Shown here one piece after another: positions 1,191 through 13,243 of a stretch of DNA of 32,886 bases. Every line of letters begins with the position of its first letter. The first letter of the stretch is position 1. The position numbers and the translations under genes are program-made. Source of the stretch: a virus. The notes under the pieces were generated by a model. It saw nothing but the letters and a program-made list of their open reading frames with translations, was not told where the DNA came from and did not search any database. The stretch is from positions 1-32,886 of the IMG/VR virus record IMGVR_UViG_3300031524_000048; one strand, given 5' to 3'.

Positions 1191-1211
1191 CTGTTAATTA
1201 TTGGGTAACAG
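1191..1211. repeat. Small inverted repeat in the 1083-1345 intergenic region
   Basis: CTGTTA and TAACAG arms of 6 bp are separated by 9 AT-rich bases. It lies 25 bp from the 24-bp palindrome, in the 263-bp gene-free region where an attachment site might be expected. No function is assigned. Confidence 0.35.
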
Positions 1212-1246
1212 TTCCCATAACGCTAATTATCGGTCGTTGAATTTCG

Positions 1247-1276
1247 ACCCTCTGGAGGCGGCTTTGGAGGGTTTTT
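1247..1276 (+). terminator. Possible weak rho-independent terminator
   Basis: ACCCTC and GAGGGT arms of 6 bp enclose a 14-base loop and run into TTTTTC. The stem is short and the loop long. It points rightward toward the 3' end of the minus-strand gene at 1346-1639. Confidence 0.3.
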
Positions 1277-1345
1277 CAAGATGGCCCGAATCGGCTCAAA
1301 ATCGACTCCGGAGCGTGTAACTCGACGTGCGACAGATGCTTCAAG

Positions 1346-1639
1346 CTAACGATGAAGTTCGCGCGGGCGACCCCTCTCTTGGATGATGGTCAGATCGGCG
1401 GCGCACTGGTCCCTACTTCGCGCGCAGGACGCTGTGGATGCGGAGCAGGAGGCATCCAGGATCTTCTGGCGTGCCTGCACGTTTTGCAGCAAGGCTCTGG
1501 TGCCGGCTATCTGGCGCCGCTGCCAGTGCAGGACATATTGCGTAAATACAACGGAATCGAGCACAACAAATGCCAATAGGAAGAAGATTAACCGCGAGAC
1601 CAGGATCGGCTTCCGCAACCAGTTCCACGCACGACTCAT
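1346..1639 (-). CDS. Small membrane-anchored protein
   Basis: A 97-residue protein with a basic N-terminus and one strong transmembrane segment at about residues 12-37 (ILVSRLIFFLLAFVVL onward), then a polar helical tail with three Cys. The start is well supported: AAGGAG lies 6 bases before the ATG at 1639. The topology, a single N-terminal anchor with an outward helical tail, resembles an inner-membrane spanin (Rz), and the neighbour upstream is a lipoprotein. The order is reversed compared with usual Rz/Rz1 pairs, so a lysogenic-conversion membrane protein is as likely. I do not recognise the family. Confidence 0.6.
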   Translation of the reverse strand: MSRAWNWLRKPILVSRLIFFLLAFVVLDSVVFTQYVLHWQRRQIAGTRALLQNVQARQKILDASCSASTASCARSRDQCAADLTIIQERGRPRELHR

Positions 1640-1677
1640 AGGGACTCCTTCAACGAATGGCTGACGCGACGCTGGGG

Positions 1678-1992
1678 CTACTTGGTAGGGCAGACGCTTT
1701 CAGCCCACGCGGCGCCTTCAGCTTTAGTCTTGAAGATGCGGGTGTCGGTGTGTGTCGATACCCTCTCACCGCTGCCGCTGGGATCGGGGCCTGAGCCGGT
1801 TGGATGATCAACCTCCCATTCATTGCCTCCGCCATAAAGATTCGCGCACAAGCCGTGGAACGTAGTGGGGTGGCGTTCGCGCCAATAGGTGTACTCGCCG
1901 CCATCGACCTCAACACGGTAATAGGCCGCTCGCGCGCACCCCATCAGGGACAGAAGCAAAACTCCGAGCATTAATTTACTAATGTGACTCAC
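1678..1992 (-). CDS. Predicted lipoprotein
   Basis: The start GTG at 1992 overlaps the stop of the recombinase gene (GTGA) and is preceded by GGAGGG, so translation is probably coupled. Residues 8-19 form a signal sequence ending in a lipobox-like SLMGC, predicting an acylated Cys19 and attachment to a membrane on the periplasmic side. The mature part, about 85 residues, contains two more Cys and Gly/Ser-rich loops. The family is unknown. Lysogen-expressed lipoproteins next to integrases often act in superinfection exclusion or conversion; an outer-membrane spanin is another option. Both are inference. Confidence 0.65.
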   Translation of the reverse strand: MSHISKLMLGVLLLSLMGCARAAYYRVEVDGGEYTYWRERHPTTFHGLCANLYGGGNEWEVDHPTGSGPDPSGSGERVSTHTDTRIFKTKAEGAAWAESVCPTK

Positions 1993-2954
1993 GCGGCCCT
2001 CCGTGATCTGCCGCGCCTCGGCTTGCCGGCCGGCGATGTCAGGGTCCAGCTCCGCGGGTGAAACTTGCGATGAGTCTCCTGGAGGTGTCTGATCGCGACG
2101 TGGGTGTAGAGCTGCGTCGTCGAGATGTCCGCATGCCCCAGGATGGTCTGCACGCTGCGCAGGTCGGCGCCGCCTTCGACCATATGCGTAGCGCAGCTGT
2201 GGCGGATGCGGTGCGGCCCCTCGCCGGTCTGCGCGCGCACTAGCTGGTAGACCCAGCGGCGCGTCAGTGCCCTGCCCCGCGCGCTGAGGAAGACGGCGCG
2301 CTGGAGATCCCCACGGCCGCCGCGTACGAACTGCGATCGCCCGCGGTCCAGGTATTCGGTGAGCGCGTCGACGGCGCGGCGGCCGAGCGGAACGATGCGC
2401 TCCTTGTCGCCCTTGCCGCGGACCTGGGCGCGGCCCTCGTCGAGCTGGAGATCTTCGACACGCAGGCCACAGAGCTCGGAGACGCGCAGGCCGGCGGCGT
2501 ACAGCAGCTCGAGCATGGCGGCGTCGCGCAGCGCGAACTTCGCCGCGCCGGCGCGGTCATCGCAGGCGACGGCCGAGGCCTGCAGGTTGTCGAGGATTTC
2601 GGAGATCTGCGCGGCGGCAGTGGCGTGCGGCAGCGTGATCGACGACGTCGGCTGCTCGACCAGCAGCGTGGGATCGTGGGCGATGCGCTTGTCTTTCAGC
2701 AGCCAGAGGTAGAAGCCGCGCAGCGCGCTGAGCTTGCGCGAGACCGACCGCGAGACCACGCCGTTGCCGCGCAGCTCGCCCAGGAACGCGGAGACTGCCT
2801 CGCGCGAGGCGTTGGCCAGCACCGCGCCATGCTTCGATGCGAACTCGGAGAACTGTTCCAGGTCGGTGCGATAGGCGGCGACGGAGTTCGGCCGCAGCCC
2901 GCGCTCGATGGTGAGGTGCGCGGAGTACTCGCGGAGGAGATCCATGTCGCTCAC
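1989..2954 (-). CDS. XerC/XerD-like tyrosine recombinase
   Basis: A complete 321-residue site-specific recombinase, close to the usual length of Xer proteins. The N-terminal SAM-like core-binding domain spans about residues 5-95. The catalytic domain shows the full set: Arg157 (AAGLRVSEL), Lys181 (RGKGDKER), His248 and Arg251 (HRIRH), His274 (ILGHADIS) and the nucleophile Tyr283 (TTQLYTHV). A basic tail follows (RRGRSRRAA). The GTG start at 2954 has GGAGGC at a good distance and overlaps the stop of the upstream gene (GTGA). It lies downstream of an excisionase-like gene, so it may integrate and excise the phage; its close likeness to XerC/D also fits dimer resolution of a circular element. 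Confidence 0.92.
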   Translation of the reverse strand: MSDMDLLREYSAHLTIERGLRPNSVAAYRTDLEQFSEFASKHGAVLANASREAVSAFLGELRGNGVVSRSVSRKLSALRGFYLWLLKDKRIAHDPTLLVEQPTSSITLPHATAAAQISEILDNLQASAVACDDRAGAAKFALRDAAMLELLYAAGLRVSELCGLRVEDLQLDEGRAQVRGKGDKERIVPLGRRAVDALTEYLDRGRSQFVRGGRGDLQRAVFLSARGRALTRRWVYQLVRAQTGEGPHRIRHSCATHMVEGGADLRSVQTILGHADISTTQLYTHVAIRHLQETHRKFHPRSWTLTSPAGKPRRGRSRRAA

Positions 2955-3190
2955 GCCAGCGCCTCCGCGATCGCCTCGGTGCTGGACTTGAAGGTCAACG
3001 AGATCGCCGATTCAAACGCCAGGTCGGTGGCCACCTGGAGGCCGCGCTTCATTCGCGCGATCGCATCTTCGCGGCTGTCGCACTTAATAATCTGCCGCTC
3101 GCGTTGCTTCCCCTTCAGGGTCGAGCTCAGGGTGACCACCCAAACGCCGTCCGGCCCTTCTTCCGCCTTTATGTGGATCTTTGCGTCCAT
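2951..3190 (-). CDS. Small unassigned protein of the recombination operon
   Basis: A 79-residue protein. The ATG at 3190 is chosen because AGGAGC lies 7 bases before it; the open frame runs further upstream but the added residues are low-complexity and out of character. The first half looks like a beta-sheet (KIHIKAEEGPDGVWVVTLSS, then RQIIKC) and the second like a helix with Glu, Arg and Lys. Its end overlaps the recombinase start by four bases (GTGA), so it is translated with it. Function is not recognised. Confidence 0.6.
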   Translation of the reverse strand: MDAKIHIKAEEGPDGVWVVTLSSTLKGKQRERQIIKCDSREDAIARMKRGLQVATDLAFESAISLTFKSSTEAIAEALA

Positions 3191-3218
3191 GGTTGAGCTC
3201 CTGTTCGGCGCCCGGCGT

Positions 3219-3545
3219 TCACCTCGCCTTGGCGACCTTTTTGAGAATGGGGTTGTGGTGGCAAAGCCAGTAGTCGATGGTGGCGGGGTCAAAGCAGATC
3301 TTCTCACTGCCCGGGATGATGAGCCGCGGAATCTTCTCCGCATGAACCATGCGGTAGATGACATCATCGGAGTGACCGAGCACGTCGGCCAACTCGGGGA
3401 CAGACATTGGGCGACGGAAGGCGCGCAGCCGGTCGACGATGCTGAGTGGGGCACCACCGCTGGCTTGGCGCATCATCTCCGCTGTGTCGCCCGGCTTCGC
3501 GCGAGGCTCGCGAGGGCGTGGACGCGTCATGGAAGCGGCGGCCAT
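3219..3545 (-). CDS. Excisionase-like helix-turn-helix protein
   Basis: A 108-residue protein whose C-terminal 60 residues match the MerR/excisionase type of DNA-binding fold: MSVPELADVLGHSDDVIYRM, then a charged turn (IPRLIIPGSEKICFDPATIDYWL). In this family the fold bends DNA at attachment sites and steers the recombinase toward excision. AGGGAG lies 8 bases before the ATG at 3545, and this start overlaps the upstream stop as TGATG, so the two are coupled. The first 40 residues are Arg/Pro-rich and probably disordered. Position just upstream of the recombinase supports a recombination-directionality role; a plain transcription factor is the alternative. Confidence 0.7.
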   Translation of the reverse strand: MAAASMTRPRPREPRAKPGDTAEMMRQASGGAPLSIVDRLRAFRRPMSVPELADVLGHSDDVIYRMVHAEKIPRLIIPGSEKICFDPATIDYWLCHHNPILKKVAKAR

Positions 3546-3787
3546 CAGTTGGGGCTCCCTGTGGCGTGGCGCCAGTCATCGACGCCGGCGCGGCCGTTCG
3601 GCTTCTTGTAGGGCAGCTCGCCGCGCGCGATACGCTGCTCGATCAGGTGCTGGATCTCGCGCATGTAGATGGTGACCTCATCCTCGGGCGCCACGATCTT
3701 GGCGATGACGGCAGTGCGCGCCACGCTCAACGCCTTGTGGTGGTCGTACATCCCGGCGAGGTAGAGATCGATTTCATCGAGCGGCAT
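3545..3787 (-). CDS. Small unassigned protein, first gene of the minus-strand recombination operon
   Basis: An 80-residue mostly helical, acidic-then-basic protein. The ATG at 3787 is preceded by AGGAGGT at 7 bases, the best ribosome site nearby, so the longer upstream frame is rejected. Its stop overlaps the start of the excisionase-like gene. It diverges from the toxin gene at 3862, and the 74-bp gap must hold promoters for both. No family is recognised. Confidence 0.6.
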   Translation of the reverse strand: MPLDEIDLYLAGMYDHHKALSVARTAVIAKIVAPEDEVTIYMREIQHLIEQRIARGELPYKKPNGRAGVDDWRHATGSPN

Positions 3788-3813
3788 CAGCGGACCTCCT
3801 GCGCGAAAATAAA

Positions 3814-3861
3814 GTGTCCAGAATAGTTGACAGCTACACAGGTGTCCCGTATAGTGGACAC
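3814..3861 (+). promoter_or_regulatory. Promoter and operator of the HigB/HigA-type module
   Basis: A near-ideal promoter, TTGACA (3827-3832), 17 bases, TATAGT (3850-3855), points at the toxin gene. The predicted transcript start falls on the A of the toxin ATG at 3862, with no ribosome site, so the mRNA is probably leaderless. Operator half-sites: GTGTCCA at 3814-3820, GTGTCC at 3842-3847, and the inverted TGGACAC at 3855-3861. The last two form GTGTCC-N8-GGACAC centred on the -10 box, as expected for autoregulation by an HTH antitoxin. Confidence 0.8.
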
Positions 3862-4158
3862 ATGGTTGAGTTGGTCGCAAGCGCCGAGTTTACGAAGTGG
3901 ACCGGCAAGTTGCGTGACCTGGAAGCGAAGAAGCGGATAGCCGCCCGTCTTGGTCGGGTTGCGGCGGGAAACTTCGGCGATGTGAAGCCGGTCGGTTCCG
4001 GCATCTCTGAGCTGCGCATCCCCTACGGCCCCGGCTATCGCGTGTACCTGATGCAGCGCGGAGCGGAGATTGTGATTCTGCTGTGCGGCGGCGATAAATC
4101 GACCCAACAGAAAGACATCGAACGGGCGAAGGAAATCGCCCTCGATTTCAAGGAGTGA
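3862..4158 (+). CDS. higB: RelE/ParE-superfamily toxin of a HigB/HigA-type pair
   Basis: A 98-residue protein matching the addiction-module killer family (HI1419-like). Typical features are EFTKWTGKLRDLEAKKRIAA near the start, GNFGDVKPVGSGISELRIPY in the middle, then GPGYRVYL and ILLCGGDKSTQQKDIERA. Family members are RNA-cleaving toxins acting on translated mRNA. The ATG at 3862 is chosen over the longer frame because homologous proteins start there and the promoter predicts transcription from that base. The antitoxin follows after 3 bases. The toxin-first order is the usual one for this subfamily. In a phage it would stabilise the element or guard against other phages. Confidence 0.88.
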   Translation: MVELVASAEFTKWTGKLRDLEAKKRIAARLGRVAAGNFGDVKPVGSGISELRIPYGPGYRVYLMQRGAEIVILLCGGDKSTQQKDIERAKEIALDFKE

Positions 4159-4161
4159 CCT

Positions 4162-4512
4162 ATGCCAACCAAAAAGAAGAAGATGACCTTTCGCCGCTTC
4201 GATGTGGCTGAGATGCTCGACAGCCCGGAGATGATCGCTGGTTTTCTCAGCGTCTCCATTGAAGAGGCACAGGGCGACCAGGCCCTGATCCTGAACGTGC
4301 TGAACACCGCGGCGCGAGCCCAGAACAGAAACATGACGCAGCTCGCCAAAGATAGCGGGATGACGCGGAGCGGACTTTATGCGGCGCTCGCCGGCGAACG
4401 GAACCCGAGCTTTGGAACGGTGCTTCGATTGCTCGGAGCGATGGACATGACTGTGACCGTGACGCCGGCAAAACGAGGCAACGTTCGCAAGCGCGTCGCC
4501 GTCGCGGCCTGA
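4162..4512 (+). CDS. higA: HTH antitoxin of the HigB/HigA-type pair
   Basis: A 116-residue antidote protein of the HI1420-like family. The N-terminal half (FDVAEMLDSPEMIAGFLSVS) is the conserved family lead-in. The C-terminal half is an XRE-type helix-turn-helix, MTQLAKDSGMTRSGLYAALA followed by NPSFGTVLRLLGAM. AAGGAG overlaps the end of the toxin gene, and the ATG is 3 bases after its stop. It should neutralise the toxin and, with it, repress the promoter at 3827-3855 through the GTGTCC half-sites. The stop codon TGA is the first three bases of a palindromic octamer array. Confidence 0.88.
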   Translation: MPTKKKKMTFRRFDVAEMLDSPEMIAGFLSVSIEEAQGDQALILNVLNTAARAQNRNMTQLAKDSGMTRSGLYAALAGERNPSFGTVLRLLGAMDMTVTVTPAKRGNVRKRVAVAA

Positions 4513-4545
4513 GCGCCTGGGTGCCTGGGTGCCCAGGCACCCGGC
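4510..4545. repeat. Octamer palindromic array, copy 1
   Basis: The array begins with the TGA stop of the antitoxin gene and runs in 8-bp units: GAGCGCCT, GGGTGCCT, GGGTGCCC, then the reverse complement AGGCACCC. Arms of 11 bp (4519-4529 and 4532-4542) flank a 2-base centre. It could fold in RNA and protect or end the upstream transcript. Confidence 0.85.
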
Positions 4546-4590
4546 CGCGTGAATCCCACCGGACATGACGAAGGCGCCGCAACGTGTACG

Positions 4591-5331
4591 ATGGCGCGCA
4601 TGAGAAATATCTGGGCCCTGGTCGTCATCCTTGCGGCTACGTCCGCGTCTGCTCAAACTGCGACCGTACCCGACGAAGCCGCGCGCACCATCACTGAGTG
4701 CGGCGCTCCCGTCAGCGACCAGCTCGTGCCCGATGTCGGCATGATTGGCCATCGCAACCGGACCCTGACCTACAGGAACTTCACCGCCGTCTATGAGCAG
4801 CGTTCCGGGCCGTGGTTTCTGGTGCGGGGAAGTTATAAGGGACGGCCAAAGGCCACGCGCGAGGACTTCATCATCGAAGTGCCGTGCATCGGCAACGCGA
4901 TGACGACCGCGCCGGCTGCTGGTACCGGGCTGACATCCACGCCTGCGCCGACACCCAGCAGTGGCGACGGGAGCGGCGCCGCGCTTTTGCTGGCAGTCAT
5001 CCTGGGCTTCTACTTCCTGCCGTGCATCGTGGCTGCCTACCGTAAGGTCCACTCCTCTGCCGGCATCGGCTTGGTCAACCTGCTGCTGGGCTGGACGCTG
5101 ATCGGCTGGGTCGTTGCCCTCGTCTGGGCATGCAGCGCCGAGACCGAGGCGCAGGTCAAAGCCCACGTCGTGGATTACGACCAGATGGCGGCCGCGATGC
5201 TTCGCGCACAGCAGCATGCCGCAACCGTGGTCGCTGCCCCGCTGCCCACACAAAGTCGGGTGATCTCCGGACCTGGACCGATGCTTGATGCTGGGCGCGC
5301 TGTGGGCAGCCTGTTCCACCGCAAGAGCTGA
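4591..5331 (+). CDS. Superinfection immunity protein (T4 Imm-like membrane domain)
   Basis: A 246-residue exported membrane protein. A signal peptide (MRNIWALVVILAATSASAQ) is followed by a soluble domain with two Cys pairs, a Pro/Thr-rich linker near residue 130, then a two-helix membrane domain: LLLAVILGFYFLPCIVAAYR and NLLLGWTLIGWVVALVWAC. The motifs LP-x-I and N-LLGWTLIGW-ALVWA are the hallmark of the Imm superinfection-immunity family (T4 Imm), which blocks DNA injection by related phages. T4 Imm is only this small domain; the periplasmic extension is unusual. The start could also be the ATG at 4600. The gene follows the toxin-antitoxin pair and ends in an octamer array, typical of an independently expressed lysogenic-conversion gene. 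Confidence 0.8.
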   Translation: MARMRNIWALVVILAATSASAQTATVPDEAARTITECGAPVSDQLVPDVGMIGHRNRTLTYRNFTAVYEQRSGPWFLVRGSYKGRPKATREDFIIEVPCIGNAMTTAPAAGTGLTSTPAPTPSSGDGSGAALLLAVILGFYFLPCIVAAYRKVHSSAGIGLVNLLLGWTLIGWVVALVWACSAETEAQVKAHVVDYDQMAAAMLRAQQHAATVVAAPLPTQSRVISGPGPMLDAGRAVGSLFHRKS

Positions 5332-5390
5332 ACGCCTGAGCGCCTGAGCGCCCGGGTGCCTGGGTGCCTGGGTGCCCAGGCACCCAGACG
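5329..5390. repeat. Octamer palindromic array, copy 2 (longest perfect arms)
   Basis: It starts with the TGA of the immunity gene. Units GAACGCCT, GAGCGCCT, GAGCGCCC, GGGTGCCT, GGGTGCCT and GGGTGCCC then flip to AGGCACCC. Perfect arms of 13 bp at 5360-5372 and 5375-5387. It fills the gap between two convergent genes, so it is well placed as a bidirectional terminator-like structure. Confidence 0.88.
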
Positions 5391-5405
5391 CGCTGTGATT
5401 CGCCC

Positions 5406-5666
5406 TCACGCTGCGAGCTCTTCCTGCCGGCGCACCCTCCCCACCGGCTTTATGAGTGCGACGTGATAGTCCTCAGGAAATAGAATCTGGTCGCGCGTGA
5501 CGGCATTGCCGAAGTACTTGGCAATTTTGTTTGCGACGGCCGGACTAGCCTTGGTCTCCCGGATCTCAATGCGGCGATAGTGACTCGGCGTTATGTCGAG
5601 CGCTATGGCCACTTGCCGCGAGGTCAGTTTCAAACTCTCGCGATGAGCTCTCAGTGGCGTAATCAT
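5406..5666 (-). CDS. XRE-family regulator, likely switch repressor
   Basis: An 86-residue helix-turn-helix protein: LRAHRESLKLTSRQVAIAL followed by DITPSHYRRIEIRETKASPA, then a short tail. The start is the ATG at 5666 because AAGGAGG lies 8 bases before it; the upstream ATG at 5684 is part of that ribosome-site region. It is transcribed leftward from a strong promoter with a palindromic operator in the spacer, and a near-identical promoter-operator is found in front of the replication operon. That makes this protein the best candidate for a CI-like repressor acting on both; the divergent neighbour at 5765 could play the Cro-like part, or the roles could be swapped. Confidence 0.82.
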   Translation of the reverse strand: MITPLRAHRESLKLTSRQVAIALDITPSHYRRIEIRETKASPAVANKIAKYFGNAVTRDQILFPEDYHVALIKPVGRVRRQEELAA

Positions 5667-5686
5667 ATGAACATCCTCCTTCATGG

Positions 5687-5715
5687 TTTATCGCACCATC
5701 ATAATGGTGTGTCAA
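5687..5715 (-). promoter_or_regulatory. Repressor promoter with operator in the spacer
   Basis: On the minus strand TTGACA (5715-5710), 17 bases, GATAAA (5692-5687). The spacer holds the inverted repeat CACCAT-N4-ATGGTG (5694-5709), so a bound dimer would sit exactly between -35 and -10. The same layout recurs at 6652-6680. Confidence 0.75.
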
Positions 5716-5764
5716 GCCCTAAAACTCCGTGGCTTATTAGACCATTTATGCGTCAAAATTGAGC

Positions 5765-6100
5765 ATGGATATCGTTGGAGCCAACATTCGCAGCCTAAGA
5801 CGTGCGAGGGGCTATCTACAAAAAGAGCTGGCCGACCTTGCCAAAATGGACCCCAGCAACCTCTCCAAATTGGAGCGCGGCGATTACACATGGACGAGAG
5901 ACAACCTGGAGCGCATCGCGAAAGCGCTCGGCGTTCCGGTGGCCTCCTTTTTCGAGGTCCAACCGAAGACGCCAGCCTCCGGCGCCTTGTCGCCGGGCTC
6001 GCCCCCCTCGTCGAAGCGTGATCCATTGCCCCTGCTGATCAATATGGACTCCAAGCTGGATCTCATTCTCAACAGCATTAAATGCGGGGCGGCGCAGTGA
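5765..6100 (+). CDS. XRE-family regulator divergent from the switch repressor
   Basis: A 111-residue protein with a classic HTH-XRE domain at about residues 5-65: VGANIRSLRRARGYLQKELA, DLAKMDPSNLSKLERGDYTW, ERIAKALGVPVASFF. A Pro/Ser linker leads to a short helix (MDSKLDLILNSI) that could mediate oligomerisation. The ATG at 5765 has no clear ribosome site; a TTG six bases earlier is possible. The 98-bp divergent region between the two regulators is the presumed lysis-lysogeny switch. The gene ends in a GTGA overlap with the next gene, so the two are co-expressed. Confidence 0.85.
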   Translation: MDIVGANIRSLRRARGYLQKELADLAKMDPSNLSKLERGDYTWTRDNLERIAKALGVPVASFFEVQPKTPASGALSPGSPPSSKRDPLPLLINMDSKLDLILNSIKCGAAQ

Positions 6101-6603
6101 GCGACCCACGGATGAGTGTCGCGATCACGGGCTTGACCCAGGCAGACCGTGGGCTGCTCGGCGAAATGATCAACGGCGTGAGCAACGCGAAGTATGTAGC
6201 CAATCCTCGCGTGCCGTCCCATTACATCGTCGCGAACGATCCGCTCTCATCGAAGGTGCTTCGATTTGAGGGGGGAGGCTCTCTCGTCATCACCGAAGAC
6301 GAACTGCTCGAATACATCCACGCAGGCACGTTCCCGGCTCACGATCTGGCGCGCCCGCTTTCCCCGAACCGGCTCAAAGTGACCTGGGCGGAGTTCTACC
6401 GGCCGCCGAGGGCGTGCCAACTCGAATATCACAACGTCGATGGGGATCTATACACTGGCCTCGTGCATGTCGTGCGGCGCGGCACCGGCAACAATGGCCA
6501 CGAATATATCGGGGCTTATGAGGGTGCGACCTTCAAAACCTACCGTACAGACCGCATCCTAACTGCTAGCTACCTGAGCGACGCAGTTCCAGAAAAACCG
6601 TAG
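6097..6603 (+). CDS. Unassigned protein with WYL-like C-terminal domain
   Basis: A 168-residue protein. The GTG at 6097 overlaps the previous stop (GTGA), a coupling style seen repeatedly here; ATG at 6112 is the alternative. Residues about 100-155 (CQLEYHNVDGDLYTGLVHVV, then HEYIGAYEGATFKTYRTDRI) have the pattern of a WYL domain: a beta-rich core ending in F-x-x-x-R-x-D-R-I. The same ending, FKTLRSDRI, is present in the SWIM protein at 12626-13243. WYL domains bind nucleic acid or ligands and often control defence and stress genes. Its place beside the switch suggests an accessory regulator. The assignment rests on pattern reading only. Confidence 0.6.
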   Translation: MSDPRMSVAITGLTQADRGLLGEMINGVSNAKYVANPRVPSHYIVANDPLSSKVLRFEGGGSLVITEDELLEYIHAGTFPAHDLARPLSPNRLKVTWAEFYRPPRACQLEYHNVDGDLYTGLVHVVRRGTGNNGHEYIGAYEGATFKTYRTDRILTASYLSDAVPEKP

Positions 6604-6651
6604 AAACCCGATGAAAGGCCCACCCTTGACTACCCCACCCTAGGGAATGGC

Positions 6652-6680
6652 TTGACACACCACGCTGAAGGTGTAATAAA
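6652..6680 (+). promoter_or_regulatory. Early promoter with repressor-type operator
   Basis: TTGACA (6652-6657), 17 bases, AATAAA (6675-6680). The spacer reads CACC-N8-GGTG (6658-6673 region), matching the operator of the repressor promoter. With flanks, 28 of 34 bases agree with the minus-strand copy, including CTTGACACACCA and ATAAACCAT. It drives the replication genes from 6707 on. Confidence 0.78.
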
Positions 6681-6706
6681 CCATCTAGCTCATCAGTGGG
6701 CAGCCT

Positions 6707-7048
6707 GTGAACCCCATGCCCGACGCCGCTCCCCAACTCGCGCTGCTCCGTGACCGCCTCACGTGGCTCCGGCTTTGCCACGCTGAGCCGGCTGCGTGTA
6801 TGAACTGCCTGCACACCATTGCGGAGTTCCTGGCCGGAGAGATGGACCATGACCTGCAAACCGCGCTCAACAAGTCCACCGAGAGCTACCAGGCAGAGCT
6901 GGGAGCCAACCGCTGCACGCTGGAGCAGGCGCGCGTTCTGCGCTTCCTGACCTGCTCGGCGTGCATCGCGCCTACGGCAGAAAATTATTTCGTCGCCGAC
7001 GACGACCCAATGAACATAGCAAAGCACGTAGACCGGAGTAGAGCTTGA
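6707..7048 (+). CDS. Small Cys-rich protein, first gene of the early operon
   Basis: A 113-residue protein with CHAEPAACMNC near residue 25-35 and CSAC near residue 87, which may form a zinc site. The rest is helical. The start is GTG at 6707, or ATG at 6716; neither has a strong ribosome site. It lies 26 bases beyond the -10 of the early promoter and overlaps the replication gene (TTGA). No family is recognised; first-gene position in the early operon suggests a replication accessory or regulator. Confidence 0.65.
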   Translation: MNPMPDAAPQLALLRDRLTWLRLCHAEPAACMNCLHTIAEFLAGEMDHDLQTALNKSTESYQAELGANRCTLEQARVLRFLTCSACIAPTAENYFVADDDPMNIAKHVDRSRA

Positions 7049-8586
7049 GTGTATCGATCATGGGCGCGGTGATGGACCGTGGGCCGGCTAAAGGTTCAAT
7101 GAGATCTCTTCTGCTGGCGATCGCCAACAGCGCCGACGACTTCGGGTTCGCCTGCCCCGGCATCGAGCTGCTGGCCAAGTCCTGCTGCTGGGACGAGCGC
7201 ACCGTCATCCGCAACAGCGGACGCCTGGAGGCCGAGGGCTGGATGCGCGTGGAGCGTAAGGTCCTGGGCGGCCGCGGGAATGTGTACTTCATCGACATTC
7301 AGAAGCTCGGGGTCATCCCGACCTCAACGGCGCGGCACAGCCCCATGTGGGCGGACATGCAGCGGCTGATGCGCGCGCTGAACACAGGTGACAAACTGTA
7401 CCAAAGAGGCGGCCGCCTGAAGTTCGAAAAACCCGCCGATGGTGCGGGTGAAGTGGTCACCGGCGACCTCTTCGGCGACGAAAACACAGGTGACATTTTG
7501 TCACCTGAGTTTGGGCGCGCTGAGCCCCAAAATGGGGGCACAATCGACCGGATTGCCGCCATTGCCTCAGTTACGGGCGATTTAGGGGCTGAAACCGCCT
7601 CAGAAGATGGAAACTCAGGTGACAAAATGTCACCTGACAACCCACACCAGTGTCACCTGACAGGTGACATTTTAAGCTCGCCCTTTAAGTACTTAACCGT
7701 TACTGAACCGTTACACAACCGTAAGACCCCCCAACCCCCCGCAAGCGGGGGGAGCGGGTTGGAACTTTCCGACCAGGTCTCGGCTCAAGGCGTCGAGCTG
7801 GTGCTGCCCCACCCCGACGCTCAACCCGGCGACGCCGACTTCGCGCTGAACGTGGGGCTGGCGTCGCGCTGGGTGCTGCGGCGGTGCGGGATCTCGAACT
7901 CGCGGATGGAAAAGCACGTCACCGCGGCGCTGACCCTGCGCATGAAGTCCACCGGCGAGGACCTGCCGGCCGTCGCCCAACTCGCCGCCGCGAACAACGC
8001 GGCCTACACCGCTGCCTTCGCTGCCGGCGATATGCGCTTTGGGCCGTGGAGCGTCCCTGCGTTCTTCGGCCAGGGGCACTGGACCAGCAGCGCGACGTGG
8101 CCGTGGGTCGACGCAGCGCGGCGATCGCCTTCCGTTGCGCGATACGATGACAGCCCCGAAGCCGAGGCGTTCCGCGCCGCGGCTGAAGCCGCCGCGAATG
8201 AACGGCGTGCCGCGTGGACCGAGAGCAACGCCGACCAGATCGCTGCGCTCGACGTGCCGGAGGAGGCGAAGGCCGCACTCTCCACCGTGGTCACATCGCT
8301 GCGCGCCGTTGCCGGCAGCCTGCGCGATGGCGAGGCGCTCGACGTCGCAGATCAGCGGCTGTGTGAGCTCGAGGCCGCGATGCTCGATGCGCTGGTGGCG
8401 CATGTGCCGGCAGCGAAGGCCGCGAACGATGAGATCGACGCCAGGGCGTCGCAGCTCCCGCTGAACCTCACCCGCGCGCAGTTCGCCGCGCAACTCGTCC
8501 CGATGCGGCGCAAGAAGATCTGCGACGCCGTCGACGCGCCCTACCTGTCGCTGTTCCACATGCCGGACTTTTCTTCGACCGCCTGA
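7045..8586 (+). CDS. Replication initiation protein with internal origin
   Basis: A 513-residue protein. The N-terminal 100 residues form a winged helix-turn-helix of the phage replisome-organiser kind: MRSLLLAIANSADDFGFACP, GIELLAKSCCWDERTVIRNS, LEAEGWMRVERK. A low-complexity centre (residues about 110-250) coincides with a cluster of iterons and AT-rich repeats in the DNA. The C-terminal part is helical and Ala-rich. As with lambda O, the protein probably binds sites inside its own gene and recruits the helicase. The start is TTG at 7045, coupled to the previous stop and preceded by GGAG, or ATG at 7060. It is followed by an octamer array and the HerA-like gene. Confidence 0.75.
   Translation: MSVSIMGAVMDRGPAKGSMRSLLLAIANSADDFGFACPGIELLAKSCCWDERTVIRNSGRLEAEGWMRVERKVLGGRGNVYFIDIQKLGVIPTSTARHSPMWADMQRLMRALNTGDKLYQRGGRLKFEKPADGAGEVVTGDLFGDENTGDILSPEFGRAEPQNGGTIDRIAAIASVTGDLGAETASEDGNSGDKMSPDNPHQCHLTGDILSSPFKYLTVTEPLHNRKTPQPPASGGSGLELSDQVSAQGVELVLPHPDAQPGDADFALNVGLASRWVLRRCGISNSRMEKHVTAALTLRMKSTGEDLPAVAQLAAANNAAYTAAFAAGDMRFGPWSVPAFFGQGHWTSSATWPWVDAARRSPSVARYDDSPEAEAFRAAAEAAANERRAAWTESNADQIAALDVPEEAKAALSTVVTSLRAVAGSLRDGEALDVADQRLCELEAAMLDALVAHVPAAKAANDEIDARASQLPLNLTRAQFAAQLVPMRRKKICDAVDAPYLSLFHMPDFSSTA
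7385..7669. other. Candidate replication origin: seven 9-bp iterons
   Basis: The 9-mer CAGGTGACA or its complement occurs seven times in 285 bp: forward at 7385, 7487, 7616 and 7661, reverse at 7499, 7628 and 7651. They pair into CAGGTGACA-N3-TGTCACCTG palindromes at 7487-7507 and 7616-7636, and a head-to-head pair at 7651-7669. They lie inside the initiator gene, next to AT-rich repeats, as in lambda. Confidence 0.85.
7670..7752. other. Candidate origin unwinding region and hairpin
   Basis: Directly after the iterons come TTTTAAG, the perfect palindrome TTAAGTACTTAA (7685-7696), and three 11-bp spaced repeats, AACCGTTAC at 7695 and 7706 and AACCGTAAG at 7717. Then follows a perfect hairpin, CCCCCCGC (7735-7742) and GCGGGGGG (7745-7752). 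AT-rich repeats fit an unwinding element; the hairpin could load a primase or helicase. Confidence 0.6.
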
Positions 8587-8625
8587 GCGCCTGAGCGCCT
8601 GGGCACCCAGGCACCCAGGCACCCA
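8584..8625. repeat. Octamer palindromic array, copy 3
   Basis: It starts with the TGA of the replication gene: GAGCGCCT, GAGCGCCT, GGGCACCC, AGGCACCC, AGGCACCC. The inverted core GCCTGGG-CA-CCCAGGC spans 8597-8612. It separates the initiator from the ATPase gene. Confidence 0.85.
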
Positions 8626-8654
8626 TTCCCTGTATCGATCGCTGGAGGCAAGAC

Positions 8655-10439
8655 GTGGAAAAACTGACCATCGGCACCACCGGAAGTCATCGCAAGCCGT
8701 TCACTCTGCCTCTGAGTCTCGTGACGTACACGCAGGCCATCCTCGCGCGCAAGCGTTCCGGCAAGAGCTACACCGGTTCCGTAGAGGCCGAGGAGATGCT
8801 CAAGGCCAAGCAGCAGATCGCGGTGATCGATCCGACCTCGGCGTGGTGGGGACTGCGCTCCAGCGCCGACGGCAGGTCGGCCGGCTTCGACATCATCGTC
8901 TTCGGCGGGGACCACGCCGACGCGCCGCTGGACTACCGCGCGGGCAAGGCGATGGCTACCGCGCTAGTCGAGCATGGCTTCTCCGCCATCTTCGACATCG
9001 GCAACTTCCACACCGAGGAGCAGGTGCAGTTCGTCATGGACCTGTGCAGCGAGCTGCTCCGCATCAACCGCAACGCCATGCACCTGTTCATGGACGAGGC
9101 CGACACCTTCGCTCCCCAGCGCGGCAGCAAGCTCCAGATCAAATGCCTGGGTGCCGTCAGTCGTCTGGTGAAGCAGGGCGGCATCAAGGGCGTGGGCTTC
9201 ACGATGATAAGCCAGCGTTCCGCATCGCTCAGTTGGGACGTGCTGAGCCAGGTGGACATCCTCACCGTGCTGCGCATGAGCGCGCCCCACGATCTCCGGC
9301 CGGTGCAGAACTGGCTCCAGAGCGAGACGACGAAAGAGTTCGCCGCCCAGGTCTACGCCGAGCAGCCATCGCTGCCGGTGGGCGTGGCGTTCGTTGCCTC
9401 AGCGCCGCTCGGCATCGCGCAGCGCGTGGAGATACGCAAGCGCGAGACGTTCAACTCCGGAGCTACTCCGAAGCCGGGAGAGCGGGCCATCGTCCCGAAG
9501 ATCCTCGCGCAGATCGACATTGCGAAGCTGGGCCAGAAGATCGCAGACAGCGTGAAGCGCGCGCGCGAAGAGTCGCCGGAGTTCCTCAAGCAGCGCATCG
9601 CAGCACTCGAAAAAGAAGTCGCCAAAGGAGGCAAGCCCAGCATGGAGCTCCAAAAGCACATCAAGGACCTGGAGGAGAAGGCCGCGCTCTACGACCAGGC
9701 GAAGGTTGATCTAGAAGCCGCGCAGCAGCAGGCCGAGAGCGTGAAAGCTAAACTGACCTCGGTCGGCAACATTCTAGGTTCGATGAAGGAGCTGTGCGAT
9801 CGCGGCCTCGCTGCGCTCGCGACCGAGGGTGTGGTCAAGCCGGTCCCGTCAAAGCAGCCACCGACCAGGTATCTCGCTACGCCCATTGCCCCGATCGTCC
9901 AGCCCGTCCATGCGGCACCTGTCCCGCGCCGCGCGCCATCCGCGCCACCGCCCGTCGACGGCGAGCTAAAGCTCCGCGGCAAGAGCATGGCGATGCTTGC
10001 GGCCTGCGTCGGCATGTATCCGGCTGGGCTGACCCCAGCACAGGTCGCCATGCAGGCCGGCATGAAGCGCAGCAGTGGGACGTTTGACGACTACAAATCT
10101 CTCCTCAAGAGATCTGGCTGCGTCCAGTTCGTCGACGGGCTCTGGTATGCGACCGAGGAAGGTCTGCGTCGCCTCGACACTACGGCGCCCTCTCCCCCCA
10201 CTACCACAGAGGAGGCTCTCGCGCTCTGGATGCCGAAGCTGCGCGGCAAGTCAAAGGTGCTGCTAGAGGTTTTGGTCGCCCAGCGTGGACAACCTCTCGT
10301 CTACGAGAAACTCGCCGAACTGGCGGGCATGCAACGCAGCGGAACCTTTGACGACTACCTCAGCCTCCTGCGCTCCGCTGGCCTCATCACTACCGGCGCC
10401 GGCACGGCGCGCGCCAACGCGGAGGTTTTGTTTCTATGA
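8655..10439 (+). CDS. HerA/FtsK-type P-loop ATPase with two C-terminal winged-helix repeats
   Basis: A 594-residue ATPase. Walker A is ARKRSGKS (residues 31-38), Walker B is HLFMDEAD (143-150), followed by a sensor-like ISQR (185-188) and a VDILTVLRMSAPHDL stretch, all typical of HerA hexameric DNA translocases. A coiled coil lies at about 315-385 and a Pro-rich linker at 395-435. Two homologous winged-helix-like units follow, about 436-506 and 526-594, sharing LRGKS and RSxGTFDDYxSLL. The GTG start at 8655 has GGAGG 8 bases upstream. Located between initiator and ParA, it may act as replicative helicase, as a pump in segregation, or in DNA processing. Confidence 0.82.
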   Translation: MEKLTIGTTGSHRKPFTLPLSLVTYTQAILARKRSGKSYTGSVEAEEMLKAKQQIAVIDPTSAWWGLRSSADGRSAGFDIIVFGGDHADAPLDYRAGKAMATALVEHGFSAIFDIGNFHTEEQVQFVMDLCSELLRINRNAMHLFMDEADTFAPQRGSKLQIKCLGAVSRLVKQGGIKGVGFTMISQRSASLSWDVLSQVDILTVLRMSAPHDLRPVQNWLQSETTKEFAAQVYAEQPSLPVGVAFVASAPLGIAQRVEIRKRETFNSGATPKPGERAIVPKILAQIDIAKLGQKIADSVKRAREESPEFLKQRIAALEKEVAKGGKPSMELQKHIKDLEEKAALYDQAKVDLEAAQQQAESVKAKLTSVGNILGSMKELCDRGLAALATEGVVKPVPSKQPPTRYLATPIAPIVQPVHAAPVPRRAPSAPPPVDGELKLRGKSMAMLAACVGMYPAGLTPAQVAMQAGMKRSSGTFDDYKSLLKRSGCVQFVDGLWYATEEGLRRLDTTAPSPPTTTEEALALWMPKLRGKSKVLLEVLVAQRGQPLVYEKLAELAGMQRSGTFDDYLSLLRSAGLITTGAGTARANAEVLFL

Positions 10440-10469
10440 GCGTGGGTGCCTGGGCACCCAGGCACCCGC
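10437..10469. repeat. Octamer palindromic array, copy 4
   Basis: It begins with the TGA of the HerA-like gene. GGGTGCCTGGG (10444-10454) and CCCAGGCACCC (10457-10467) form 11-bp arms around CA. It lies in the 75-bp gap before ParA, whose own ribosome site is downstream of it. Confidence 0.85.
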
Positions 10470-10514
10470 AGTTCCTTTTTCCCGAGCATCAACCCCGAGC
10501 ACTTAGGAGCCAAC

Positions 10515-11135
10515 ATGATCCTGACCGTAGCGAGTTACAAAGGCGGCGTGGGCAAGACCACCACCGCGGTCCACGCGGCCGCCTTCCTCAATCAACTCTC
10601 GAAAAACAAGCCGGCGTTGCTGCTGGATGGCGACTCCACGCGCAACGCCACGGCCTGGGCGCAGCGCGCGAAAGCCGGCGCGTTCCCTCTGCGCGTCGAG
10701 CCGATCGATATGGCTGCGAAGCTGGCGCGCGAGTATCCGCACATCGTGATCGACACCGGGCAGCGGCCGAGCGCCGCCGATCTCGAAGCCGCGGCCGAGG
10801 GTTGCGACCTGCTGGTGATTCCCGCCGTGCCATCCGCTCTCGACACTGACGGGCTGGGGCAGACGGTGCGTGCGTTGCAGCAGCTCAAGATCGACAACTA
10901 CAAAGTGCTGCTTACGCGCGTGGCTCCGGACGCAGCGCGCCAGGCAGCGGACCTCCGCGAGCTGCTGCGCTCGATCGGCGCACCGGTATTCAAAGCAGAG
11001 ATCCCACGGCTCAAGGCCTTCGAGAAGGCCGCGGGCGAAGGGCTGATCGTGGACGCCGTCGACGACCGCCAGGCTGAGCGCGCGTGGGCTGCCTACGAAG
11101 CCGCCGGGCACGAACTCAAGGCAGGTGCGCGATGA
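10515..11135 (+). CDS. parA: ParA-type partition ATPase
   Basis: A 206-residue protein of the small ParA class. The deviant Walker A is KGGVGKTT (residues 9-16) with the signature Lys9. LLLDGDSTRNATAW (35-48) is the switch region and HIVID (76-80) the second Walker motif. There is no N-terminal HTH domain, so transcription control is left to a partner. AGGAG lies 7 bases before the ATG at 10515. Such ATPases coat the nucleoid and move plasmid DNA bound by a centromere protein; the ribbon-helix-helix protein two genes on is the natural partner. The stop overlaps the next start (ATGA). Confidence 0.9.
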   Translation: MILTVASYKGGVGKTTTAVHAAAFLNQLSKNKPALLLDGDSTRNATAWAQRAKAGAFPLRVEPIDMAAKLAREYPHIVIDTGQRPSAADLEAAAEGCDLLVIPAVPSALDTDGLGQTVRALQQLKIDNYKVLLTRVAPDAARQAADLRELLRSIGAPVFKAEIPRLKAFEKAAGEGLIVDAVDDRQAERAWAAYEAAGHELKAGAR

Positions 11136-11353
11136 GGAGACTCTTCGTGGTCGAGTATCGCGACTCAAAGCTCCTGACCTGGAGTGCAGTGAAGGGCTTC
11201 CTGACTTCAGAGGCGGCCGACGCTTATCAGCGCACGGTCGCCGCTGGTCTGCCGGCGCGCGTGGTGCCCTATGCGCCCGAGGAGATGCTCAAGGTCGCGA
11301 CGAAGAACGATGTGATGAAGCTATCGGCAGCGAAGGCGGGGGTGCGTCCATGA
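11132..11353 (+). CDS. Small unassigned protein between ParA and its presumed partner
   Basis: A 73-residue protein that overlaps the genes on both sides by ATGA, so the three are translated together. It looks like an alpha/beta fold: RRLFVVEYRDSKLLTWSAVK, then a helix (TSEAADAYQRTVAAG), then a strand and a second helix. No family is recognised. Its location inside a partition operon suggests an accessory role. Confidence 0.65.
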   Translation: MRRLFVVEYRDSKLLTWSAVKGFLTSEAADAYQRTVAAGLPARVVPYAPEEMLKVATKNDVMKLSAAKAGVRP

Positions 11354-11637
11354 ATCTGGCAAAAGCGTTCGAAGGAATGAAGGCGGTGAAGACTGTGGGT
11401 ACTCAGGCGTCGGGCACCCGGGCACCTGGGCGCTCAGGCACCCAGGCGCTCAAGCGCCCAGCCGCTGGTCTTCCCTTGCAGGGGACGGCGAAGCGATCGC
11501 ACCCGGACTTCGCGCCGGTGAAGGTCTACCTGCGCAAGGAGACGCGCCGCGCGGCCGAGCGTAAGTGGGTGGACGCCAACGGCGGCGACTTCTCCGACCT
11601 GGTCGAGATGTTGTTGCAGAAGTATGTGGGTGCCTGA
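11350..11637 (+). CDS. Ribbon-helix-helix protein, likely centromere-binding partner of ParA
   Basis: A 95-residue protein. Residues 56-93 (PVKVYLRKETRRAAERKWVD, then GDFSDLVEMLLQKYV) follow the ribbon-helix-helix pattern: one beta-strand, a helix, a turn and a second helix. Such proteins bind direct repeats as dimers of dimers and serve as ParB in type Ib partition. The N-terminal part would contact ParA; residues about 16-38 are encoded by an in-frame octamer array (GTQASGTRAPGRSGTQALKR), giving an Arg/Gly/Ala linker. The ATG at 11350 overlaps the previous stop. A second array carries its stop codon. The centromere site is not identified. Confidence 0.7.
   Translation: MNLAKAFEGMKAVKTVGTQASGTRAPGRSGTQALKRPAAGLPLQGTAKRSHPDFAPVKVYLRKETRRAAERKWVDANGGDFSDLVEMLLQKYVGA
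11398..11463 (+). repeat. Octamer array translated in frame, copy 5
   Basis: About eight units of the AGGCACCC, AGGCGCTC and GGGCACCC type lie in one orientation inside the ribbon-helix-helix gene. Since 8 bp times 3 is 24 bp, the frame cycles every 8 residues and stays free of stops, giving G-T-Q-A-L/S type repeats. It is the only copy fully inside a gene. Confidence 0.85.
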
Positions 11638-11661
11638 GCGCCCGGGAGCCTGGGCACCCAG
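11627..11661. repeat. Octamer palindromic array, copy 6
   Basis: It contains the last codons and TGA stop of the ribbon-helix-helix gene. From that TGA (11635) 27 bases are identical to copy 7, including GAGCGCCCGGGAGCC. GGGTGCC (11628-11634) can pair with GGCACCC (11653-11659). Confidence 0.8.
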
Positions 11662-11681
11662 AGGTTAGGAATGGAGGATCC

Positions 11682-11990
11682 ATGAGCGAAGAAAGCAGAA
11701 CGAGGTATCACGCCGCGGGCCACGCGATTCAATCGGGTGTGGCTTATGAGATGACCCAGGGCGACGCTGCCGCTGGGACCAGCCCAAAGAGTCTCCGCAC
11801 CGGCGTCAATCTGTCGAAGTGTGACCAAGCCGCGCTGGTGAGGCTGCTGATGGCGAAGGGCGTGTTCACTCTGGACGAGTATGAGCAGGAGCTCGCGGAC
11901 GAGGCCGAGCGTGAAGTGCAGCGTTATGAGGACCGCGCGAACGCCCGTATGGAAGCGACGGGCAGTCCGTCCAAGATCACTTTTGGCTGA
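11682..11990 (+). CDS. Small unassigned early protein
   Basis: A 102-residue protein, start ATG at 11682 with GGAGG five bases before. The second half is helical and acidic: LSKCDQAALVRLLMAKGVFT, then LDEYEQELADEAEREVQRYE. The LMAKGVFT-DEYEQEL pattern resembles a short winged-helix or helical hairpin found in small phage proteins of unknown role. Arrays of octamer repeats stand on both sides, so it may be an independently acquired cassette. Confidence 0.65.
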   Translation: MSEESRTRYHAAGHAIQSGVAYEMTQGDAAAGTSPKSLRTGVNLSKCDQAALVRLLMAKGVFTLDEYEQELADEAEREVQRYEDRANARMEATGSPSKITFG

Positions 11991-12020
11991 GCGCCCGGGA
12001 GCCTGGGCACCCAGGCACCC
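11988..12020. repeat. Octamer palindromic array, copy 7
   Basis: It starts with the TGA of the preceding gene and shares 27 identical bases with copy 6, then adds AGGCACCC. The next gene's ribosome site, AAAGGAG, follows at once. Confidence 0.85.
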
Positions 12021-12033
12021 AAAGGAGAGAGCG

Positions 12034-12210
12034 ATGGCCGAGCGCTTCACGAAGGGGACGGTCGAGGCGAGTGTGTGGTGTGCCAAGTGCGGGAAGGCCA
12101 CGCTGCACCGCATCGATAACGGACTCCGCGGGGCATGCCTGGTCTGCCTGAAGAAGCTGGAAGATCTGCCGGCGGTGCCCCCGGCCGCGGTGCAGGAGAA
12201 TCTGTTTTGA
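12034..12210 (+). CDS. Zinc-ribbon protein of 58 residues
   Basis: Two CxxC knuckles are visible, CAKC (16-19) and CLVC (35-38), with 15 residues between, as in a treble-clef or ribbon zinc site. AAAGGAG precedes the ATG at 12034. The remainder is a short acidic-Pro tail. It is likely a small nucleic-acid or protein adaptor; the exact target is unknown. The KH-protein gene follows after 14 bases. Confidence 0.7.
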   Translation: MAERFTKGTVEASVWCAKCGKATLHRIDNGLRGACLVCLKKLEDLPAVPPAAVQENLF

Positions 12211-12224
12211 AAAGGAGCCACACG

Positions 12225-12515
12225 ATGACCGATGAAGAGAAGTGCAGGAGCATGGAGATGTTAGCGAGGACGATGGTGACAGCCGTGGTGAATACGCCGG
12301 ACGCGGTGAATGTCGCGGGATCGATGTGTGGGGACCAGGGGATCTTGCTGACCATCGTCACGGCGCCGGGCGATGTGGGCCAGATGATCGGTAAACAGGG
12401 CAGAATGGCTCGGTCCATCCGCACGGTGCTCGGCGCGGCCTGCGGCCGGGAAGGCCTTCACCTCGAGCTGAACCTCGTCGAGTCGGATCGTGACAGGGAA
12501 GGGCTCCGGCGATGA
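12225..12515 (+). CDS. KH-domain RNA-binding protein, KhpA-like
   Basis: A 96-residue single-KH protein. The RNA-binding loop is GKQG (56-59) in the context GQMIGKQGRMARSIRTVLGA, nearly the consensus of bacterial KhpA. It is preceded by ILLTIVTAPGD and followed by LHLELNLVE, the beta strands of the fold. Known KhpA proteins bind many RNAs and act in cell-length control and small-RNA traffic. AAAAGGAG lies well before the ATG at 12225. Carriage by a phage is uncommon; it could bind phage or host mRNAs, for example to steer translation of leaderless transcripts, which is speculation. The stop overlaps the next start (ATGA). Confidence 0.82.
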   Translation: MTDEEKCRSMEMLARTMVTAVVNTPDAVNVAGSMCGDQGILLTIVTAPGDVGQMIGKQGRMARSIRTVLGAACGREGLHLELNLVESDRDREGLRR

Positions 12516-12679
12516 GCGACGTCGGTGATGCCGAGTTGGACAAACTAGCCTTCCTGCGCGCGCGGGCCTGGGCGGCACAGAGGCCGTTCGTGCCCTACGA
12601 CTCGATGTTCCCGCCGGTGATGCCTCTAAGTGAGATTGTCGATGTGGATGCGCGTGGTGTCGCGGAGGAAGATCAGTAG
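12512..12679 (+). CDS. Very small protein coupled to the KH gene
   Basis: A 55-residue frame starting at the ATG that overlaps the KH stop (ATGA) and ending with TAG at 12677-12679. Its sequence begins MSDVGDAELDKLAFLRARAW and contains a Pro-rich middle (PFVPYDSMFPPVMPL). The overlap style matches other genes of the operon. The last 54 bases overlap the minus-strand gene, so the two transcripts converge. No function is known. Confidence 0.5.
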   Translation: MSDVGDAELDKLAFLRARAWAAQRPFVPYDSMFPPVMPLSEIVDVDARGVAEEDQ

Positions 12680-13243
12680 CTCCTGCGACCAGCCTTCAGC
12701 GCTTTTAGGCAGGTAGGTGAGGATGGCCTTCGCCATGTGAGGGCACACGAAACCCAGCTGCCCACTCTCATAGCCAAAGCCGCTGCGGATGCGCTTCTCA
12801 GGACAGGTGCAGGTGTATTTGTTCAGATCGACCGTCCACGTCTTGTTACTCACCGCTGTCGTCGGCATCTTGAAAACCGCGTTGGGCAGCGGGAATCCTG
12901 GTAGTTGCGTCGAGTAAGTCGGCTGCGGCCGGATGCTGGGTTCGTGGCCCTGGGTGAGCTGCTCGACGACACTGACGATGCGGTCCGATCGCAGCGTCTT
13001 GAAGATGCCGGCGTGCATCACGCCGAAGTAAATCTTGTGACTGAACTCGCCGATCTTTAGTAGCTCGACCGTGCGGTCACTCATCACGTTGTCGCCATCA
13101 CGATAGACGATCCGATACCGCTCGCGTGGCTCGACGATGCGCTTCCAGACGATGTTCTCGCTGAGCGAAAGTGGAGCACCTGCAGCTTTGCGCGGCGCCG
13201 GCCGCTTGCGACGCCAGTCGGGACGGGAAGGGAAGTTCGCCAT
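12626..13243 (-). CDS. SWIM zinc-finger protein with a WYL-like domain
   Basis: A 205-residue protein. Residues about 40-92 (RERYRIVYRDGDNVMSDRTV, then IYFGVMHAGIFKTLRSDRI) have the WYL-like pattern also seen at 6097-6603. Residues 138-175 form a SWIM finger, C145-x-C147 and C167-x-H169, in YTCTCPEKR and GFVCPHMAKAIL. SWIM fingers bind DNA or proteins and occur in recombination and transposition factors. The combination with a WYL-like domain is one I do not know. The ATG at 13243 is chosen from a weak GAGGC upstream; ATGs at 13273 and 13306 extend the frame. It lies antisense between early and late genes. Confidence 0.65.
   Translation of the reverse strand: MANFPSRPDWRRKRPAPRKAAGAPLSLSENIVWKRIVEPRERYRIVYRDGDNVMSDRTVELLKIGEFSHKIYFGVMHAGIFKTLRSDRIVSVVEQLTQGHEPSIRPQPTYSTQLPGFPLPNAVFKMPTTAVSNKTWTVDLNKYTCTCPEKRIRSGFGYESGQLGFVCPHMAKAILTYLPKSAEGWSQELLIFLRDTTRIHIDNLT

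Follow-up and report, generated by a model that had tools for sequence, protein, structure and literature searches.

The stretch of DNA analysed here (the window; IMG/VR record IMGVR_UViG_3300031524_000048, 32,886 bases, one strand) is in our judgement likely to be a fragment of a temperate Acidobacteriaceae phage, from a group whose members work like phage-plasmids. The core set of this group consists of a replication initiator, a ParA partition ATPase, a ribbon-helix-helix (RHH) protein, arrays of 8-bp boxes and, in most members, a gene that we call g306; a HerA-like ATPase and an XerD-type recombinase are extras of the window's own phage. Because the partition module is accompanied by circular, complete relatives without recognised bacterial DNA, the group probably persists as a plasmid and not in the chromosome. 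Little is known about the phages of Acidobacteriota, which are abundant in soil, and no description of phage-plasmids in Acidobacteriota was found in the literature searched, the coverage of which lacks many journals. A recurrent group of this kind, if true, would extend the phage-plasmid lifestyle to Acidobacteriota and reveal a partition module that plasmids have in common with phages of at least two types.

Phage P1 combines phage structural genes with partition and addiction functions and is maintained as a circle. The group resembles the P1 and SSU5 phage-plasmids in having structural genes, partition and addiction functions on a circle, but differs from them in its short ParA, RHH-type partner, O-like initiator with internal iterons, recombinases and acidobacterial host. 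A sequence-only reading of the window had proposed a P1-like set of maintenance genes; the likeness held at the level of function, whereas family scans, in which P1 proteins were not compared directly, recognised no P1-type RepA, ParB or Cre.

Partition genes of plasmid affinity

The parA gene (10515–11135, plus strand) encodes a protein of 206 amino acids (aa) that matched PF01656 (E = 8.9e-17) and phrog_164 (8.4e-31), confirming the identification made in the sequence-only reading. The protein aligned with plasmid ParAs from residue 1 and gave a profile match to ParF (4dzz); as a short ParA without an N-terminal helix-turn-helix (HTH) it is type Ib-like. An open reading frame (ORF) of 73 aa (11132–11353, plus) separates parA from the gene of a ParB-like partner (11350–11637, plus). 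No Pfam match was obtained for this partner, and its putative assignment as an RHH protein, likewise proposed earlier, fits its position, which is that of the partners of plasmid ParAs, the alignment of its C-terminus with two such partners and structural similarity at low scores. An AlphaFold2 model of the full-length protein (pLDDT 58) was not used; the model of its last 50 residues (pLDDT 81) consists of an extended segment and two helices. Foldseek returned no significant match for this C-terminal model, and the four top rows of a second structure comparison were DinJ, ORF56, Arc and FitA (Z scores of 3.5–4.7, that is, below 5), all of which we take to be RHH proteins.

The search for relatives annotated as plasmids was positive: ParA matched 2130 of 72,556 plasmid records at an E limit of 1e-5, the best being pACIX904 of Granulicella tundricola (58%), and one of 50,697 phage records, the limit there being 1e-10. 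Two features by which phage-plasmids are recognised, a partition system homologous to those of plasmids and phage structural and packaging genes, are present in the window, the latter also in its relatives. Among 250 Acidobacteriaceae genomes, 10 ParA matches were found in six, on contigs of 32, 17 (two matches), 66, 15, 375, 27, 36, 13 and 86 kb; nine of the 10 matches lie on contigs of 13–86 kb, and three of the contigs have exact 95-bp end overlaps. The 17.4-kb contig (G483:C3, locus L101) is an 8,909-bp unit assembled twice and is probably a small circular plasmid with the window's type of ParA; otherwise, a short ParA-bearing contig may simply be a piece of a draft genome. The window's structural genes found no match on the ParA-bearing contigs, three of which were covered in part only. 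An RHH alignment gave seven matches in six of 240 Acidobacteriaceae genomes, mostly on the same contigs as ParA.

Both pACIX904 and pACIX905 of G. tundricola carry a ParA of the window's type. The latter further resembles the group in that its relatives of ParA, of the RHH gene, of g306 and of the tyrosine recombinase of G655 (a group member described below) lie within 3 kb. Relatives of g306 are also carried by pACPOL2 and pACPOL4 of Acidisarcina polymorpha. Unlike the group, pACIX904 and pACIX905 have an annotated RepA near ParA, and pACIX905 carries type IV secretion system genes. In the 72,556 plasmid records, the G655 recombinase had eight matches at 40–47%, from Acidisarcina, Granulicella, Paludibaculum and Deinococcus. 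As judged from these sequence relationships, ParA, the RHH protein, the recombinase and g306 show plasmid affinity. The nearest relatives of ParA, of the G655 recombinase and, in a scan of all phyla, of the window's XerD-type (Xer) protein also support the acidobacterial host proposed before.

A group of phages with circular members

A scan of viral contigs with a ParA alignment (at least 600 stretches) gave at least 207 relatives, the best 80 of which were kept, and a scan with an RHH alignment gave 12 loci. Among the best 80 ParA loci, the six with at least 50% identity (G001 and G655–G659) were followed, one (L142; 33%, with ParA as its sole match) was viewed briefly and the 73 at 40% or less were left out, as was a 21.6-kb contig from the RHH scan (L240) from the count. 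G659 was not counted as a member either, having only ParA (53%) in common with the window and no array. Ten contigs were counted besides G001 (G655–G658 and G663–G668), and by near-identity there are eight distinct phages: window/G001, G655, G656/G666/G667, G657/G668, G658, G663, G664 and G665. The RHH gene is present in all eight and ParA in all seven that cover its stretch; G665 begins inside the cassette, and only its RHH gene is visible. The window's type of TerL also occurs in G656, G658 and G663, G655 has a phrog_9 TerL, and head genes differ between at least two phages of the group. G655 shares DNA with G657.

Four of the eight phages are circular. G655 has an exact 127-bp end repeat, and bases 1–126 of G658 recur at 39218–39343. 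G667 matches the right end of G656 (27220–32387) and then, after 4.8 kb, its left end (1–14995), and G668 bridges the ends of G657 in the same way, save for a 1.5-kb difference, with 99.67% identity or above in both cases; differently cut contigs of one phage thus close the circle of G656 and of G657. No chromosomal gene was recognised in the ORF lists of G655 and G658, most ORFs of which were not annotated singly, and no host junction was recognised in the group, in which not every ORF was annotated. The question of circularity or chromosomal flanks raised by the sequence-only reading was thus answered in favour of circles for half of the group, and not for the window and G001. As to gene arrangement, the half of G658 from J to the lysis genes (L224–L225) lies on the other strand from the head genes, an arrangement not shared by G656 and G663, and downstream of its par genes G657 (L222–L223) has 1.5 kb that the near-identical G668 (L257–L258) lacks.

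The window is cut on the left inside a tyrosine recombinase gene and on the right inside tail gene J. Its late region (14293–32884, plus) encodes TerS, TerL (14870–17026), a portal, a protease-capsid protein, tail proteins and the truncated J, and is continued in G001, a near-identical sister of 37,867 bp found by the ParA scan (99.98% identity over window positions 3492–32886). G001 adds 8.3 kb at the right end, with more of J and with endolysin-like and spanin-like ORFs, named by eye. The lambda-like structural region had been described as complete; its genes are there, but the record ends inside J. The capsid ORF (19981–22323) has matches to head protease as well as to major head protein families and is a fused protein.

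Box arrays and the replication initiator

Seven arrays, counted as exact chains of RRGYRCYY boxes, were found in the window. Four contiguous boxes lie at 4511–4542, six at 5338–5385, five at 8585–8624, three at 10444–10467 (48 bp before parA) and six at 11412–11459, within the RHH gene; the arrays across the RHH stop codon (11628–11659) and at 11989–12020 each have three exact boxes of four. A 24-bp repeat form with two mismatches allowed gave 43 matches in the window on both strands, compared with 0.02 expected, and all of them fell within 4511–12020. By our gene list, 192 of the 256 array bases are intergenic, the intergenic share of that stretch being 7%.

Boxes recur at the same places in the relatives. 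They occur 12–83 bp upstream of parA in six of the seven phages covering the stretch, in an 8-bp register in the window, G655, G656, G658 and G664 and in 9-bp steps in G657. With three mismatches allowed (chance rate, 0.0013 per 150 bp), boxes lie across the RHH stop in six of seven phages, G657 being the exception, and five of seven have an array within the RHH gene, G656 and G657 being the exceptions; at both places G657 has 9-bp-spaced box forms, as read by eye. G665 has one array inside its RHH gene; by the strict criterion there is none in G668, which belongs to the same phage as G657. Arrays were absent from all 18 control sequences, of which nine were plasmid contigs or stretches of them, five were annotated plasmid loci and four were prophage regions, and shuffled sequences gave a mean of 0.00. 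The tested stretches of pACIX904, pACIX905 and pACPOL4 have no array. A host-wide repeat was considered and rejected, since exact matches to the strict 24-bp form were found in none of 150 Acidobacteriaceae genomes.

The RRGYRCYY arrays at the cassette are a new observation, and they look like centromere or operator sites of the par cassette. The array sequences differ among the phages while their kind and place remain constant, which argues for a protein-binding function, and they provide a precise, testable centromere prediction. In the available text of PMC9499535, the delta-omega-parS system of pSM19035 comprises a ParA, an RHH ParB and sites over the promoters of partition and copy-control genes; its parS has six sites of 7–10 contiguous heptads (WATCACW), with at least four contiguous heptads required for full activity. 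The window arrays resemble this layout, being several sites of contiguous short repeats. They differ from it in their 8-bp boxes, in the array inside the RHH gene and in the arrays of only three exact boxes.

Lifestyle aside, the arrays could be something other than partition sites, namely intergenic repeats prone to slippage or hairpins that act at the RNA level where genes end. Six of the seven window arrays start within 9 bp of a gene end, several are inverted repeats, and tandem repeats of the GGGTGCCT type occur in three further viral contigs, which are unrelated and whose examined stretches matched neither ParA nor RHH nor HerA. We consider this explanation possible but rather unlikely: in G656 the array upstream of parA is made up of direct repeats alone, boxes are found again at the par positions even though their sequences differ between phages, and five of the seven phages have an array within the RHH coding sequence.

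The initiator gene (7045–8586, plus) encodes a protein whose N-terminus matched the PHROG family "replication initiation O-like" (4.7e-12). Within the gene, CAGGTGACA occurs seven times in both orientations (7385–7669), compared with a maximum of three for the best 9-mer in 200 shuffles of the gene. The iterons noted inside the initiator gene are confirmed, the initiator being of the phage O-like type. Iteron-like repeats exceed shuffles in four of six initiator genes (window, G657, G658 and G663, not G655 and G656). The initiator gene lies directly before parA in the window, apart from the HerA-like gene described below, and in G655, G656, G657, G658 and G663; the 943 bases preceding parA in G664 had no match. 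The G656 initiator matched 15 plasmid records, through its N-terminal HTH only among the matches listed.

Mode of persistence, recombinases and remaining early genes

In the mechanism that we propose, the lysogen would hold its genome as a low-copy circle, and the O-like initiator would start replication at the iterons within its own gene. ParA and the RHH protein would assemble on the box arrays at parA and the RHH gene and separate sister copies, a toxin-antitoxin pair would kill daughter cells that lose the circle, and the tyrosine recombinase adjacent to g306 would resolve multimers or give optional integration. Further arrays between early genes may make the RHH protein a repressor as well, like omega in pSM19035. 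The circle as the lysogenic state, recognition of the boxes by the RHH protein and the role of the recombinase are what we infer; circularity is a form of the DNA and not evidence of a lysogenic state. With more doubt than belief, we also put forward the wider proposal that the cassette represents a new RHH-ParB subfamily with its own dispersed centromere of 8-bp boxes, which phages with different capsids acquired and which, serving both for segregation and as a global repressor, ties partition to the control of early genes; the result would be a phage-plasmid group of Acidobacteriota.

Several observations weigh against persistence as a plasmid. The window and G001 are both linear and have no end repeats, and the difference between them coincides with the pair formed by Xer and an excisionase-like gene. 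Tyrosine recombinases are present in the group, and phage-plasmids typically have no integrases according to the available text of PMC12977533. Circular contigs also arise from packaged, replicating or lytic DNA of ordinary integrating phages, and none of the ParA-bearing contigs and stretches examined revealed a group member in a cultured or binned genome. The array upstream of parA is absent from G663 and that inside the RHH gene from G656. The window initiator had no tblastn match in the 72,556 plasmid records; a plasmid-homologous initiator is a usual feature of phage-plasmids in the accessible part of PMC10879196, and is not included in the definition found in that of PMC12977533. The relatives, with four circular phages of eight, plasmid-type par genes and no recognised host junction, support the phage-plasmid reading well, and their lysogens may be extrachromosomal as the sequence-only reading suggested; the reading is less certain for the window and G001 themselves, which are linear fragments.

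If these were ordinary integrating temperate phages, the recombinases would be integrases, the circles packaged or replicating DNA, and the par genes a plasmid-derived passenger or an aid to a carrier state. The group recombinases match phage integrase families, and the window's Xer gene is near an excisionase-like gene. Furthermore, a related TerL (1e-80) was found in four of 299 Acidobacteriaceae genomes, in G301, G497 and G563 on contigs of 4–5 Mb (4.3 Mb in G301 and 5.4 Mb in G497) and in G606 on 128 kb. The prophage or bin-borne regions of G301, G497 and G606 are like the window in TerS-TerL-portal-capsid-J synteny, with mostly 25–50% identity, but unlike it they showed no ParA, RHH, HerA or initiator match in the regions examined, and the same applies to G563. 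The cassette has moreover been retained in eight distinct phages with diverged DNA, in which, as stated, no host junction was recognised, and we regard integrating phages as an unlikely explanation.

At its left edge the window contains the C-terminal part of a tyrosine recombinase (2–391, plus; PF00589, 4.4e-12), followed by g306 (306–1082, minus), which had no Pfam or PHROG match. Counterparts of g306 were found in five of the seven other phages (by tblastn in G656, G658 and G663, by ORF reading in G655 and G657, that of G655 being also backed by common plasmid relatives), and in G655, G657 and G658 the tyrosine recombinase and g306 are divergent neighbours. In 250 Acidobacteriaceae genomes, g306 had 10 matches in six genomes, on eight contigs of 9–336 kb including Acidisarcina plasmids; six of the eight contigs have a ParA-like gene no more than 2 kb away and seven a tyrosine recombinase no more than 3 kb away, some of these genes being named by eye, and one contig (G206:C5) is chromosomal in appearance. 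Most g306 relatives sit close to ParA-like genes and recombinases on contigs of plasmid size. This could mean that the window derives from a prophage that lies within an Acidobacteriaceae plasmid or has recombined with one, and that its plasmid-like left-end genes are those of the host plasmid. In G655 and G658, however, g306, the recombinase and the structural genes all lie within one circle of 36–39 kb, in which a separate plasmid backbone would not fit, and this origin is highly improbable. On the phage-plasmid reading, the recombinase adjoining g306, which is distinct from Xer, is the recurring candidate for dimer resolution. A perfect 26-bp palindrome, GATAAATACCCGATCGGGTATTTATC, upstream of g306 (1142–1167) is a possible recombination site or operator; G658 has a 22-bp palindrome between g306 and the recombinase, and by the same criterion G655 has none there.

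The Xer gene (1989–2954, minus; PF00589, 3.1e-40) had been called XerC/D-like. It scored above the general tyrosine-recombinase cut-off (296.9 against 279) but below that of the XerD equivalog (296.3 against 329.6 bits). Its three best relatives among genomes of all phyla were from Acidobacteria (50–54%); it matched 93 of 396 Acidobacteriota genomes at 1e-60, the best matches by tblastn being XerD-type genes of 55–61% identity. A second Xer gene adjoins the first in all 20 Acidobacteriota loci examined; none was seen downstream of the window's Xer, which was itself found in no group relative nor elsewhere in the viral contigs scanned. A small ORF without a family match (2951–3190, minus) overlaps the start of Xer, next to an excisionase-like gene (3219–3545, minus; TIGR01764, 1.2e-5, below cut-off). 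Considering its absence from all relatives, its XerD-type nearest matches and this overlap beside an excisionase-like gene, Xer may be an integrase; our preferred reading is that a gene of chromosomal type was captured and serves as integrase or resolvase, and its proposed function in resolving dimers was not supported.

The window and G001, otherwise 99.98% identical, diverge abruptly at 3492 inside the excisionase-like gene, which suggests a recent exchange of an integration-type module. Because both encode an excisionase-like start at the divergence (read by eye), this looks like an exchange of modules and not a chromosome junction. A host flank at the left end was judged unlikely on the same ground and because g306 is found inside circular relatives; the left end is probably phage and not host.

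The HerA-like ATPase (8655–10439, plus) is present, with a weak match far below cut-off (NF040819, 2.2e-8), but is restricted to the window and G001. It was rejected as a core gene, having no tblastn match in any group relative and relatives in only three of the 396 Acidobacteriota genomes, to which that search was confined; no phage structural genes were recognised by eye near the best genome match, on a 136.7-kb contig. The addiction module of the sequence-only reading was verified as a RelE/HigB-type toxin (3814–4158; TIGR02683, 129 bits) and an HTH antitoxin (4162–4512; TIGR02684, 72 bits), both on the plus strand and above cut-off. It is followed by genes for a superinfection immunity protein (4549–5331, plus; PF14373, 4.9e-16; phrog_1039), an HTH regulator matched in G655, G656, G657, G658 and G663 (5406–5684, minus; PF01381) and a Cro/CI-type HTH regulator (5759–6100, plus; PF01381, 3.9e-12). 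A KhpA/B-type KH-domain protein is also encoded in the early region (12135–12515) and has a relative in G664.

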